Shown: one piece after another, positions 54,454 to 63,095 of the stretch
Numbering within the stretch: the stretch's first letter is position 1
Layout: every line of letters begins with the position of its first letter
DNA from: Opitutaceae bacterium EW11
Lineage (GTDB): Bacteria > Verrucomicrobiota > Verrucomicrobiia > Opitutales > Opitutaceae
Assembly: GCA_003054665.1 (NCBI GenBank)
Contig: QAYY01000011.1
Span: 160,654-224,653, forward strand
DNA: 64,000 nucleotides
Direction: 5' to 3'
Program-made: the position numbers and the translations under genes
The notes under the pieces: generated by a model
Databases searched by the model: none
What the model was told of the DNA's origin: nothing
Seen by the model: the letters and a program-made list of their open reading frames with translations, nothing else

Positions 54454-54529
<76 letters not shown>

Positions 54530-58965: not shown

Positions 58966-59703
58966 CTAGGCGCCCGGCACGGCGCATTGGGCGTAGGTTC
59001 GGGGCACTCGACCGGCGTCGATCGCTTGCCTGGTCAACCGGAGTATCTGGAGCCACGTTCCACTGTACAGGATATCCGACGGATGAATACTCACCCTGAG
59101 CAGGCTTCGGTGCCGCAGCGAACGGGCGAGGAGCGGGTTCCAGATTTGCGAGCCAAGGCGGCGCCACGCGCTGCGCGCGCTGTAGCAAAGGCTGGAGCTT
59201 TGCAGGGGACGGGTGCCGGTTCGGAGCGGAATCAAAGCGGTTCGCGTGTTGGTGTAGGCGAACCCCAGGGTTCTCAGCACGTCGATGGTGTGCGGAGCCA
59301 GCAACCACGCGGGAGCGATGAAGCCCACGGGAGACCATCCGAAGCTTTCGAGCAGCGCCCGGCCCGTAGCGATCCGCGAGCGGGTCTCTTCGGCGCTTGC
59401 CACGAGGAACTCGGCCTCGCGATTCGTGTAGAAGCGGGTCCAGAACAGGTGCCGGGGCTTCTCCTTCAGCCCCTCGATGCTGTGGGTCCAGCCGTGCAGC
59501 GTGATCTCGTCGCCTTCGTCTCTCCATCGGCTGATCGTCGAAACGAACTCCGGCGCCGACTCCACCGGCTCCGCGCCGTGCCAGCGTGGGACGACGAGCA
59601 GGTTCAACCGGGAAACGCCGAGCCGGCGCAGGTCGGCTCTTTGGCGTTCGACCAGCACGAGGCTGGAGGGATGGACGTCGTGAAGCGAAACGACCATGTT
59701 CAT
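58966..59703 (-). CDS. DUF2334-type polysaccharide deacetylase
   Basis: 245-residue NodB-like deacetylase without signal peptide. The N-terminal MNMVVSLHDVHPSS carries the first metal/catalytic His-Asp, EITLHGWTHSIEG holds the HxxxH-like metal site, then FIAPAWLLAPHT and a C-terminal VSIHPSDIL His. This order fits the DUF2334 branch of carbohydrate esterase 4-like enzymes. It overlaps the upstream GT4-GNAT gene by 4 nt (ATGA), so it is translationally coupled and probably removes an N-acetyl group from that enzyme's product. Confidence 0.87.
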   Translation of the reverse strand: MNMVVSLHDVHPSSLVLVERQRADLRRLGVSRLNLLVVPRWHGAEPVESAPEFVSTISRWRDEGDEITLHGWTHSIEGLKEKPRHLFWTRFYTNREAEFLVASAEETRSRIATGRALLESFGWSPVGFIAPAWLLAPHTIDVLRTLGFAYTNTRTALIPLRTGTRPLQSSSLCYSARSAWRRLGSQIWNPLLARSLRHRSLLRVSIHPSDILYSGTWLQILRLTRQAIDAGRVPRTYAQCAVPGA

Positions 59704-61601
59704 GCCTCACTCGTACTCAGAAATCGGATGCGCGCTCCGTGGAGGCGGCTTTGTTGCGACAGGTCTTTCCACGCGGTGCAGAGAAAAACCCGGCCAGGAA
59801 AGTGCCGCTGGTATTTCGTGATCTCGCGGCGATTGAGTACGACGAAACCGAAACGGGAAAAGAGGGCGTCGGTGCGGCGGTCTTCGTAGACTACCATCTG
59901 ACCGTAGACCGCGGTTTCGCCGTGAACGCGGAGGTAGGCAAGGAAGGCATCGATCAGGGCCTTCGTCCCGGCCATGCTGCGCGCCGCCGGAAGCACGTTG
60001 ACGTGGAAATGCGGCGTGCGCGGAGGACGCGGGGGTGTTTCCTTCAGCGCCCGCGTCGCCAGCCACCGTACGTAGCGGCGGCTGGACGCGTTGTAGCGCC
60101 CGGAAAAGTACCGCCAGGCGATGCGTGCCACCATTCGCGGCAGGTTCCAGAGGAGCCGAGCTTCGCGCCGACGCGAATGACGGCATCCGCATAGGTAACC
60201 CGCAACCTGGCCGTCGCATTCGAGGACGAAGAGAGACTCCGGCTCGTAATCCGAGTAGTAGCCCGTGAGGTAGTCGGCAAAGAGCTCCCGATCCTCAAAA
60301 ACCGTGTCGATCGGGCTGCCGAGAAACCCCGTCTCGCAACAGATCCGGCGGACCGCGGCGCGGTCGCGAGGCTGGTAGGACCGGATGCGGATTTCGCGGC
60401 CTCCCTCGATTCGAGCGCCCTCGGGAGATGCCTTGCGGGCGGAGTGGTTCGCCAGGGACCGATATTCCTCCCACAGGTGGTTGAGAACGACGGGCCAGGC
60501 GTATCGCTGGCGAACGATGGCGGACGCGAGTCCGCCGAGATCGGCGCGGTTGCGGCGACGCATGCGTTCAATCGCGGCCGCGAGGTGTGCCGGGCGGTTG
60601 GTGTCGGCCCAGCATTCGAGGCCTGCCAGGATGTTCTCGTCGAGGCAGCTCCCACGGATCCCGCACACGGGCAGCCCGCAAGCCTGCTCCTCGAGCGGTA
60701 CGAGGCCGAATGTCTCGTTGACGCTGGGGTGGACCGCCAAGTCTGCCGCGCGATAGAGTCGGGCCAGCTCGGCCGAGTCGGAAATGTGGGGAATCCACGT
60801 GACGCAACCGCCGGTGCGTTCGCGCAGGTCTAGCAGTTGTTCCCGCCACGGTCCCTGGCCGACGCAAACCAGGCGGTAGTCGTGGGCGCTGTGCCTCCGA
60901 AGCCGTTCGAACGCGGCGAGCAGCGTCTGGATGTTCTTTTCCCCCGCCAGTCGGCCCACGTACAACAGCAGTACCGCGGTTTCCGGGATTCCCAGGCGCG
61001 CGCGCAACGCCGGGTCGGGAGGACCGGGCCGAAAAGCCTCGGCGTCGATCCCGAGTTTGATCGGGCGAACCGTCTCGACGCCCCAGTCGCGGAGGACTGT
61101 CTGGAGTTTCTGTGCGCAGACGAATGTCACGTCGAACTCGTTGTACAGTTTCCGCACATAACGCCGCGCAAGGGCCAAGATGGCGTCGCGGAACAAGGGC
61201 CCGCCGAATTTCGCCGCGGTCCGCAGGTAAGCTTCCGGAAAGTGCGAGTGGTAGAAACCCACGACCGGCACGCCGAGCCCACGGGCTTCTCGGATTGTGG
61301 TCCACGCCACTTGATAGGGATCTCCGGATTCGACGATGTCGGGCCGCGCTCGACGGAGCGCATCGCGAACCGCCCCCTGGTTGAGAAGCACGCGGTACCG
61401 AGAAGTGGAGCTGACCGGCGGCGACTTGATCGTGTACGTATGCAGACGGCCCTCTCGGACGTAGTCGGTTCGCGCACCTGGAACGATCAGCACGTGTTCG
61501 TCGTCCGTCCACCGTTCGACGAAGCGCCTCTTTTCGGTGAGGTACCGACGGACGCCGCCTCCGAAGGGCGAGTAGAATTGGGTGACGTCGCAGACGATCA
61601 T
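59700..61601 (-). CDS. Fusion of a GT4 glycosyltransferase with a GNAT acyltransferase
   Basis: 633 residues. Positions 1 to about 385 form a GT-B glycosyltransferase of family 4: FYSPFGGGVRRYL at 9-21, VGFYHSHFPEAYL, LLYVGRLAGEKNIQTLLAAF (212-231) and the donor-site HPSVNETFGLVPLEEQACG (291-309, ExxxxxxxE). After a linker, residues about 404-610 are a GNAT domain: IRIRSYQPRDRAAVRRIC, LFVLECDGQVAGYLCG, HFHVNVLPAARSMAGTKALI (acyl-CoA-loop position) and DALFSRFGFVVLNRREIT. The start at 61601 (MIVCDVTQFY) fits GT4; the frame reaches upstream to 61805. It lies 7 nt after the MFS gene and overlaps the deacetylase gene. Confidence 0.88.
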   Translation of the reverse strand: MIVCDVTQFYSPFGGGVRRYLTEKRRFVERWTDDEHVLIVPGARTDYVREGRLHTYTIKSPPVSSTSRYRVLLNQGAVRDALRRARPDIVESGDPYQVAWTTIREARGLGVPVVGFYHSHFPEAYLRTAAKFGGPLFRDAILALARRYVRKLYNEFDVTFVCAQKLQTVLRDWGVETVRPIKLGIDAEAFRPGPPDPALRARLGIPETAVLLLYVGRLAGEKNIQTLLAAFERLRRHSAHDYRLVCVGQGPWREQLLDLRERTGGCVTWIPHISDSAELARLYRAADLAVHPSVNETFGLVPLEEQACGLPVCGIRGSCLDENILAGLECWADTNRPAHLAAAIERMRRRNRADLGGLASAIVRQRYAWPVVLNHLWEEYRSLANHSARKASPEGARIEGGREIRIRSYQPRDRAAVRRICCETGFLGSPIDTVFEDRELFADYLTGYYSDYEPESLFVLECDGQVAGYLCGCRHSRRREARLLWNLPRMVARIAWRYFSGRYNASSRRYVRWLATRALKETPPRPPRTPHFHVNVLPAARSMAGTKALIDAFLAYLRVHGETAVYGQMVVYEDRRTDALFSRFGFVVLNRREITKYQRHFPGRVFLCTAWKDLSQQSRLHGARIRFLSTSEA

Positions 61602-61608
61602 GGCGCGT

Positions 61609-62937
61609 CTACCGAGGCGAGAGCGGGACCGGAACCTCGACCGCGGTGGAACCCCAGCAACCGCGCAGCCGCTTGCCTGCGGCGAACCAGAAACCGAGCG
61701 CGAGGACGATGGAGAACAGGCCGAGATACTTGAGCATCGTTTCCGAGCCGAATGTCCGGAGGAGCTGGCCATTGAGGTTGAGCGCGAGGCCGGCCAGGAA
61801 CGCAATGTTGCTCAACGCAAGCCGCCGGGCAAACACGCGCCCGTGGCGTTCGCCCGCGACCTCGTGTTGCAGGCGCGCGTCGGCAGGGATCGTGATCAGC
61901 CCCGTGGCGCAGCCGGCGAAAAAGCACAGGACGCACGCCGATGCGTACGCCGTCGTGGCGCCGAGTTTCCAGGTGGCTGCGCCCCACACAGCGAGCATGA
62001 GCACGGGAAGCGCGCGCTGATGCGCGATACGCGGGATTTTGCCGGCCGTGAGCATTCCGGCGAACAGCCCGATGCCCGTCACCCCCAGCAGGACGACGAG
62101 GCCGGCAAAGGTCGCGTCCGTGCGCTGGGACAGCCAGGGCTTCAGCCACGAGCTGTCGATCTCGACCGCGGCGTGTTGGGCGAAAAAGGGGAGAAAAAGG
62201 CCGGTCACGAAGGTGAAGGCGACCGTGAGCCAGACGAGCAGGCGCACGGTGAAAAGCGTCGGCTGGGCGATCGGCGTCTCCGGTTCGTCCGCCGGATGCC
62301 CCGCCGGCGTGGGAAGCAGCTGAGTGCGTATCCGGAAAATCATCACCGTCGAGAACGCATAGCCGAGTGCGGCGGCGAGAAAACTGAACGATTCTCCGAC
62401 GAGCGCGATCGCCAGGCCGGCGGTCGCTCCGGCAAGCTCGGCGGCGATTCCGGCAAACGTCATGAGCGCGTTGCCGCGAACCAGGTGATCGCGCGGCACC
62501 AGCATCGGAAGCGCGGCTTGCCGAGCTGGGATGAACAATCCGGTGAGCAGTCCGCTTGCGGCGACGAAAATCAGCAGAAACGAGAGAGGAAGGCCGGCGG
62601 CCCATGCGAGAAGAAGCAGCAGCGCGATCAATCCGCGTCCTGCTTCCGCCCAAAGGAGGATTTTCCGACGGTCGTGTGTGTCGACCTGATGTCCGATCCA
62701 GGGGGCGAGCACCACCGGTAGGATCATCCCGCAGAATACCACGCGAGCCGCATCGCGGCCGAACGAGCCCATAAACCCGCCTGTGGAGCCCAGAAAGAGA
62801 TGGAGGAGGGCGAATTGGTAAAAGCGGTCGCCCGACGACGACACAATCTGCCCCAGCCAAAGCTTCGTGAAGTCTCCGTGGCGAAGCGTGGCACGCAAAC
62901 CGCCGGAGCGGCTGTCAGTCGAAGGAGGAACGGCCAT
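61609..62937 (-). CDS. MFS transporter (DHA3/LplT-like)
   Basis: 442-residue polytopic membrane protein with about 12 helices. GHQVDTHDRRKILLWAEAGR is the MFS A-like loop between helices 2 and 3, followed by FVAASGLLTGLFIPARQAAL and LVPRDHLVRGNALMTFAG, which recall LplT and DHA3 drug:proton members. ATG at 62937 (MAVPPSTDSR) is used. It is the first gene of the minus-strand unit with the GT4-GNAT and deacetylase genes (7-nt spacing to the next). It may export the glycan or glycolipid product, or import a lysolipid; this is inference. Confidence 0.87.
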   Translation of the reverse strand: MAVPPSTDSRSGGLRATLRHGDFTKLWLGQIVSSSGDRFYQFALLHLFLGSTGGFMGSFGRDAARVVFCGMILPVVLAPWIGHQVDTHDRRKILLWAEAGRGLIALLLLLAWAAGLPLSFLLIFVAASGLLTGLFIPARQAALPMLVPRDHLVRGNALMTFAGIAAELAGATAGLAIALVGESFSFLAAALGYAFSTVMIFRIRTQLLPTPAGHPADEPETPIAQPTLFTVRLLVWLTVAFTFVTGLFLPFFAQHAAVEIDSSWLKPWLSQRTDATFAGLVVLLGVTGIGLFAGMLTAGKIPRIAHQRALPVLMLAVWGAATWKLGATTAYASACVLCFFAGCATGLITIPADARLQHEVAGERHGRVFARRLALSNIAFLAGLALNLNGQLLRTFGSETMLKYLGLFSIVLALGFWFAAGKRLRGCWGSTAVEVPVPLSPR

Positions 62938-63095
62938 GGCGGCGGATTGCAGGGCAATGAAGTCTGGCCCGGCAGGGGCAAATGAAACACGCGCTGATAA
63001 CATGTTCCAACGCAGGACCGAACCGGCTGCAAGCCCCCGGACAGGCTGCTTTCTCGTCTGACAACGCGACGCGGGTCTGCTCGATTCGTCCGCTG

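Follow-up and report, generated by a model that had tools for sequence, protein, structure and literature searches.

Glucosaminyl-phosphatidylglycerol (GlcN-PG) has been known since the 1960s, but the genes for its synthesis were named only in 2025, in a paper that describes its functions as uncharacterised (PMC12713373). As reported there, P. aeruginosa mutants and expression in E. coli establish that GlcNAc-PG is made through gpgS and GlcN-PG through gpgD, and gpgF is a predicted UPF0104 flippase (PMC12713373). The arrangement, a GT4 synthase, a COG3233-type deacetylase and a membrane transporter encoded in one operon, is like that of the locus described here (PMC12713373). HexSDF of Clostridioides difficile, which resembles it too, is described as a synthase, a deacetylase and a flippase that are required for an amino-sugar lipid (PMC10128005). 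Mycothiol synthesis (MshA/MshB/MshD) is similar in that a GT attaches GlcNAc, after which a deacetylase releases the amine and an acetyltransferase acts later, but its product is a soluble thiol, a phosphatase and a cysteine ligase are also involved, and the acetyltransferase acylates the added Cys (PMC4360819).

Compared with GpgSDF, the locus found in the window (the whole 64,000-nt stretch of the Opitutaceae bacterium EW11 genome that was analysed) has an additional GNAT domain fused to its GpgS homologue and an MFS gene in place of the UPF0104 flippase, and its synthase and deacetylase fall below both equivalog cut-offs. A sequence-only reading of the window had stated that no characterised pathway with this gene set was known. 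This was too broad, since GpgSDF and HexSDF (synthase, deacetylase and flippase) and the mycothiol route (GT, deacetylase and acetyltransferase) are known, though none of them is the exact set. The GpgS/GpgD core is already known in kind; what is new is the GNAT that co-evolves with it and is fused to GpgS here. Among the matches listed in a literature search, covering largely journals open without subscription, none dealt with a GNAT that takes part in GlcN-PG synthesis.

Gene layout and the GpgS- and GpgD-like proteins

The three genes occupy positions 58966-62937 of the window and are all located on the minus strand: an MFS transporter gene (61609..62937, 442 aa, or 464 aa from an alternative upstream ATG at 63003) is followed by a continuous frame for a 633-aa GT4-GNAT fusion protein (59700..61601) and by a gene for a 245-aa DUF2334 protein (58966..59703). 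The MFS and fusion genes are spaced by 7 nt, and the fusion and DUF2334 genes overlap by a 4-nt ATGA; the gene coordinates thus bear out the strand, gap and overlap given in the sequence-only reading. Its description of the middle gene as a GT4 enzyme fused to a GNAT also holds, with Pfam (for the GT) and a profile and predicted fold (for the GNAT) in agreement. The promoter and terminator scan returned nothing clearly above shuffled sequences (0 vs. 0.5 and 6 vs. 4.2, respectively). The tRNA-Phe gene at 54454-54529 is the sole tRNA gene found in the window.

The GT4 domain comprises fusion residues 1-385 (60447..61601, minus strand) and the GNAT domain, which we name GpgN here, residues 396-633 (59700..60416, minus strand). 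Both are confident in the structure model of the fusion, where GT4 extends over residues 1-391 and residues 392-396 have low confidence; the overall pTM is a modest 0.63, and the orientation of GT4 relative to the GNAT is not fixed by the model. Since the fusion is carried by one assembly, it may stem from a sequencing error.

The GT half matches the Pfam families Glycos_transf_1 (94 bits) and Glyco_transf_4 (58 bits). The top-scoring of the listed models is NF053787 (GlcNAc-PG synthase), of which profile positions 1-360 of 361 are covered at 288 bits, below the equivalog cut-off of 480; the models for the mycothiol GT MshA (TIGR03449, 80 bits) and the bacillithiol GT BshA (TIGR03999, 51 bits) also stay under their cut-offs (462 and 274). 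The EX7E motif of GT4 enzymes is present, with E296 and E304 each kept in 80 of 81 aligned rows. The DUF2334 protein scores 89 bits against PF10096 and 175 bits against its sole NCBIfam match, NF053788 (GlcNAc-PG deacetylase, cut-off 280, not reached), and its HD, HxxxH and HPxD residues (H8, D9, H70, H74, H207 and D210) are kept in 25/25 rows. We take these residues and the EX7E glutamates to be catalytic or metal positions. NF053787 and NF053788 match GpgS and GpgD by name and were, we infer, built on the P. aeruginosa proteins.

Judging by these profile matches, the GT half is distantly related to GpgS and the DUF2334 protein to GpgD. The cut-offs of NF053787 and NF053788 are each reached by 0 of 387 genomes of the phylum, which points to a diverged branch. 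Because both window proteins also score below the NCBI equivalog cut-offs, PG is the probable rather than the assured acceptor lipid, and this counts against the pathway proposed below.

The GNAT domain

The GNAT half misses the Pfam cut-off (Acetyltransf_1, 18.2 vs. 20.7 bits). A profile of its relatives matches the acetyltransferase SsAT of Streptomyces sviceus (4bmh) at 2.5e-24, and its predicted fold (pLDDT 90.4, pTM 0.85) has O-GlcNAcase (OGA) HAT-like domains and SsAT as top matches (Z 19.1 for 3zj0, 18.7 for 4bmh and 16.6 for 6r45, with the first unrelated entry at 14.7). In the model, helices 81-104 and 110-121 are inserted between strands 70-78 and 136-141, and such a long beta3-beta4 insert is described as a feature of the OGA-HAT/SsAT branch (PMC3919268). 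By profile and predicted fold, then, the GNAT half belongs to this branch. The two-helix insert is basic and aromatic, with a net charge of +5 to +12 in 106 rows of the GNAT family; it is not special to the family, because relatives with a mostly ordinary loop share it (+6 to +12, 10 rows).

SsAT is reported to bind acetyl-CoA with a Kd of 20 uM, to have the loop QGRGYG and to use Tyr103, His185 and His187 as proposed catalytic residues; no substrate was assigned to it by the authors (PMC3919268). The same account describes human OGA as having lost the histidines and as having an atypical loop, interpreted as a sign that acetyl-CoA does not serve as its substrate (PMC3919268). Elsewhere, the OGA HAT-like domain is described as being of unknown function (PMC7988489).

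The three SsAT residues align, in a profile alignment, to Y449, H531 and H533, which are invariant in 106/106 family rows. The sequence-only reading had looked to an acyl-CoA binding loop in this domain, and here it stands by half: the proposed catalytic Tyr/His/His are invariant, but the canonical Q/RxxGxG/A pyrophosphate loop is absent from the window GNAT, which has RSMAGT at that place. The family loop is mostly R-x-V/M/L-S/A-T/G-T-R (R-x-V-S-T-T-R, for example), with G at position four in 6 of 106 rows and T, G or A at position six in 82, 7 and 3 rows, respectively. In addition, all 106 family rows keep Y503, W513, P523, Q568, R576, K596 and T609, positions that vary among ten distant relatives, which are GNATs of the same branch with a mostly ordinary loop. 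The window GNAT thus shares its branch with SsAT and the OGA HAT-like domains and its Tyr/His/His with SsAT, and differs from SsAT in the replaced P-loop, in the new invariant residues and in its tie to GpgS and GpgD.

Since the Tyr/His/His are invariant and the new loop is itself conserved, the GNAT looks, by its residues, like an active but re-tooled transferase and not like a decayed one. A pseudo-HAT produced by decay is disfavoured by the invariance of the proposed catalytic residues.

Two stand-alone GNAT genes in relatives are irregular, through decay or sequencing error: that of G035 (L022, 7483-8160) has an in-frame stop, and that of G010 (L021, 5941-6531) is missing a stretch after the first helix. 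Used as a query on plasmids, the GNAT matched ten records, all at most 33% identical.

Distribution of the gene set in the phylum

Among 57 genomes (own and relatives), the GT is found at E <= 1e-40 in eight, own included; six of the seven others have a separate GNAT gene downstream, and one (G039) has no GNAT match. None of 25 GNAT loci from other genomes is a fusion; 18 of them carry GpgS upstream of the GNAT on the same strand, and GpgD lies directly downstream in 18. Both flank the GNAT in 13, in the order GpgS, GNAT, GpgD. Two further loci have GpgS nearby on the opposite strand, and two have neither gene within the stretch covered. In further loci (the best 80 of 244), GpgS is upstream of the GNAT on the same strand in 60, and GpgD is within the covered stretch, on contigs many of which are short, in four.

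None of the other loci with GpgS just upstream (0/18 and 0/60) has a fusion, so the GpgS-GNAT fusion was rejected as a widespread architecture; L063 was not counted as one because the long frame upstream of its GNAT gave no GT match. In relatives the GNAT gene is stand-alone and usually adjoins gpgS, often with gpgD on its other side. Most of the 80 loci carry Verrucomicrobiota names, and the few with other names (e.g., L141, L146 and L174) may be mislabelled metagenome bins.

In several lineages, a gene for a protein of about 800 aa with a GT4 domain at its C-terminal end adjoins the gpg genes (L058 2053-4419 and L066 4653-7133, with similar ones in L059, L060, L158, L159, L074 and L075). By its letters the N-terminus resembles a PHP domain, and Pfam (E 0.001) gives the GT part only; in some loci an M3 peptidase gene comes next.

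Co-occurrence was determined in 387 genomes of the one phylum that was systematically surveyed, taken to be Verrucomicrobiota, with cut-offs of E <= 1e-50 for the GNAT, 1e-40 for GpgD and 1e-50 for GpgS; those for the GNAT and GpgD were chosen after a clear score gap had been seen. At the limits of the searches themselves, the GNAT is found in 30 genomes (1e-10) and GpgD in 22 (1e-25). The searches score only some candidates per genome, so that genes can be missed. At the cut-offs, 20 genomes have the GNAT, 21 a strong GpgD and 24 GpgS, two of the last (G104 and G362) with partial matches. All 20 GNAT-bearing genomes also have GpgS and GpgD, and the GNAT is present in 20 of the 21 genomes with strong GpgD (Fisher test for GNAT with GpgD, 1.5e-32, relatedness ignored). 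The expectation of the sequence-only reading that the gene set be kept together in relatives therefore stands for the GT, the GNAT and the deacetylase and fails for the MFS gene, of which a homologue is present in 3/21 genomes.

In half of the 20 GNAT genomes (G067, G130, G171, G207, G236, G298, G353, G362, G373 and G404, some with short contigs), one or more of the three genes is on a separate contig or at a distance of over 300 kb, and G171 and G298 have them on three different contigs. The tie between the GNAT, GpgS and GpgD is thus not one of mere neighbourhood, and chance neighbourhood was ruled out by the co-occurrence, these ten genomes included. As a control, ten genomes with only a distant GNAT of the same branch (E 1e-14 to 1e-28) were considered: strong GpgS and strong GpgD are absent from all ten, and G349 alone shows a weaker match to GpgD (2.8e-29).

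Four genomes have GpgS without the GNAT (G039, G104, G278 and G354; loci L129, L130, L127 and L132), and all four are without GpgD. Genes of G104 may be missing from its assembly, because it is congeneric with two full-set genomes. Conversely, a single genome in 387, G321 (L094), has a strong GpgD with neither GNAT nor GpgS. The five informative genomes are suggestive of a GNAT that tracks GpgD rather than GpgS alone, as would be expected if the GNAT needs the free amine released by GpgD. The earlier idea of a dedicated GNAT that tracks the deacetylase is in this respect supported by the 387-genome co-occurrence. The deacetylase of G321 may act on another substrate.

The GT, GNAT and GpgD trees share one well-supported split (100/98 or better), which separates a group with five same-family genomes from a group of class-level genomes that includes Methylacidiphilum. 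All three window copies are in the class-level group, away from their own family, and the family label requires at least two changes on each of the three trees. Support within the groups is mixed: the window GpgD is joined to its exact neighbour at 88/86, and the GT tree contains three very long rows. From the shared split and the placement of the window copies, the gene set seems to have moved, or to have been kept, as a unit, which for the window set suggests either joint transfer or descent from a second old lineage.

Proposed pathway, transport and alternatives

We propose an N-acylated glucosaminyl phospholipid as the lipid that the operon produces and transports. By homology, the GpgS half would transfer GlcNAc, presumably from UDP-GlcNAc, onto a phospholipid, most likely PG, and the DUF2334 protein (GpgD) would strip the acetyl group to leave a free amine. 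Transfer followed by deacetylation had been part of the sequence-only reading and is supported by this homology, now by way of GpgS and GpgD and not of BshA and BshB. As the co-occurrence and the conserved residues suggest, the fused GNAT (GpgN) may then N-acylate the freed amine, with an acyl-CoA, acetyl or long-chain, accepted through the unusual loop or another carrier, such as acyl-ACP, as the possible donor. Finally, the MFS protein may stand in for the missing GpgF and move the lipid across the membrane; this step follows from replacement logic and is the weakest of the four. We give the four-step scheme as a whole a probability of about 45%. Besides the uncertain acceptor, several points count against it: the Q/RxxGxG loop is replaced, and an atypical loop in OGA was read as no use of acetyl-CoA (PMC3919268); P. 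aeruginosa makes GlcN-PG from a three-gene operon without a GNAT; and the transport findings are unfavourable.

The MFS protein (PF07690, 59 bits) scores 96 bits against TIGR00900 and 36 bits against LplT, both below cut-off. Of the three genomes with a homologue, one is its own, and the two others have it elsewhere in the genome; the MFS query had no match in 36 and 80 other loci. On these counts the MFS was rejected as a member of a conserved cassette.

The GpgF-type flippase family is, we presume from the UPF0104/YbhN description in PMC12713373, PF03706. No member of it was matched in the own genome, which is 99.99% complete; it is present in 24 of 28 genomes examined and adjoins gpg genes in eight: the gene is located just after gpgD in the operon-bearing, same-family genomes G010, G013, G029, G033 and G035, and it also adjoins gpg genes in G039, G203 and G291. 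Pfam confirmed PF03706 on two of these adjoining genes. Two GpgF queries had no match in the 80 further loci (the best 80 of 244), so that the flippase linkage appears limited to one part of the phylum, and both PF03706 and this MFS are absent from G043, a genome with GpgS, the GNAT and GpgD. Since the own genome is without a GpgF-type flippase, the MFS may replace GpgF, an attractive but weak proposition.

The MFS gene may instead be an unrelated neighbour of a unit made of the GT, the GNAT and the deacetylase, a view that concerns the fourth step alone and is compatible with the other readings. The sparse distribution of its homologues and their absence from the 36 and 80 loci speak for this, and the common strand, the 7-nt spacing and the lack of PF03706 in a genome whose same-family relatives carry it in the operon speak against it. 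We hold it to have slightly less than an even chance.

Two other explanations bear on what the GNAT does. It could re-acetylate GlcN-PG and, by opposing GpgD, set the share of zwitterionic lipid. This would agree with the acetyl-CoA binding of its near relative SsAT (PMC3919268), with the acetylation of glucosamine reported for the GNAT region of a fungal GH3 enzyme (PMC4680927) and with the presence of the GNAT following that of GpgD. We nevertheless find it unlikely: the acetyl-CoA loop of SsAT is not kept in the GNAT family, and it would be wasteful to take off and put back one group within one operon. Alternatively, the GNAT could be a non-catalytic partner, like the pseudo-HAT of human O-GlcNAcase, and serve to anchor GpgS and GpgD at the membrane or to hold the substrate in place; the product would then be plain GlcN-PG. 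In favour, the P-loop is rewritten, as in OGA, the GNAT comes closest in fold to OGA HAT-like domains and to SsAT, and the basic aromatic insert could sit on the membrane, though ordinary relatives share it. On the other hand, Tyr and both His are kept in every family row, the His being described as lost in human OGA (PMC3919268). The new loop is, moreover, conserved and not decayed, and we judge a non-catalytic role improbable.

Very unlikely is a soluble mycothiol- or bacillithiol-like amino-sugar metabolite made by GT, deacetylase and GNAT steps and exported by the MFS: the logic would be like that of MshA, MshB and MshD, and the solved structures nearest by sequence to the GT half are 3c4q and 3c48, which are MshA structures, but the GT half scores far higher with GlcNAc-PG synthase (288 bits) than with MshA (80) or BshA (51), relative scores on which such a pathway was set aside as the leading reading, there is no ligase gene in the operon, PF03706 flippase genes adjoin gpg genes in eight relatives, and the DUF2334 deacetylase of the window is, we assume, outside the MshB/BshB family and different in family from the mycothiol deacetylase.

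N-acylation of a glucosaminyl lipid remains our best guess, from sequence comparisons, for the role of the GNAT, and it makes a lipid amino sugar a candidate substrate within the O-GlcNAcase HAT branch of GNATs. The GNAT accompanies strong GpgD in 20/21 genomes, which suggests that GlcN-PG is an intermediate, not an end product, in these bacteria; carriers of the GNAT include Methylacidiphilum and Chthoniobacter flavus. A broader idea, which we regard as rather doubtful, is that N-acyl-GlcN-PG with three acyl chains is a widespread verrucomicrobial lipid, made by GpgS, GpgD and a GNAT whose loop was rebuilt for long-chain acyl groups from acyl-ACP or acyl-CoA. In lipid A synthesis, LpxC and LpxD likewise carry out deacetylation of a GlcNAc followed by its N-acylation. 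If the idea is true, the deacetylate-then-N-acylate logic of lipid A would have been reinvented on a phospholipid.
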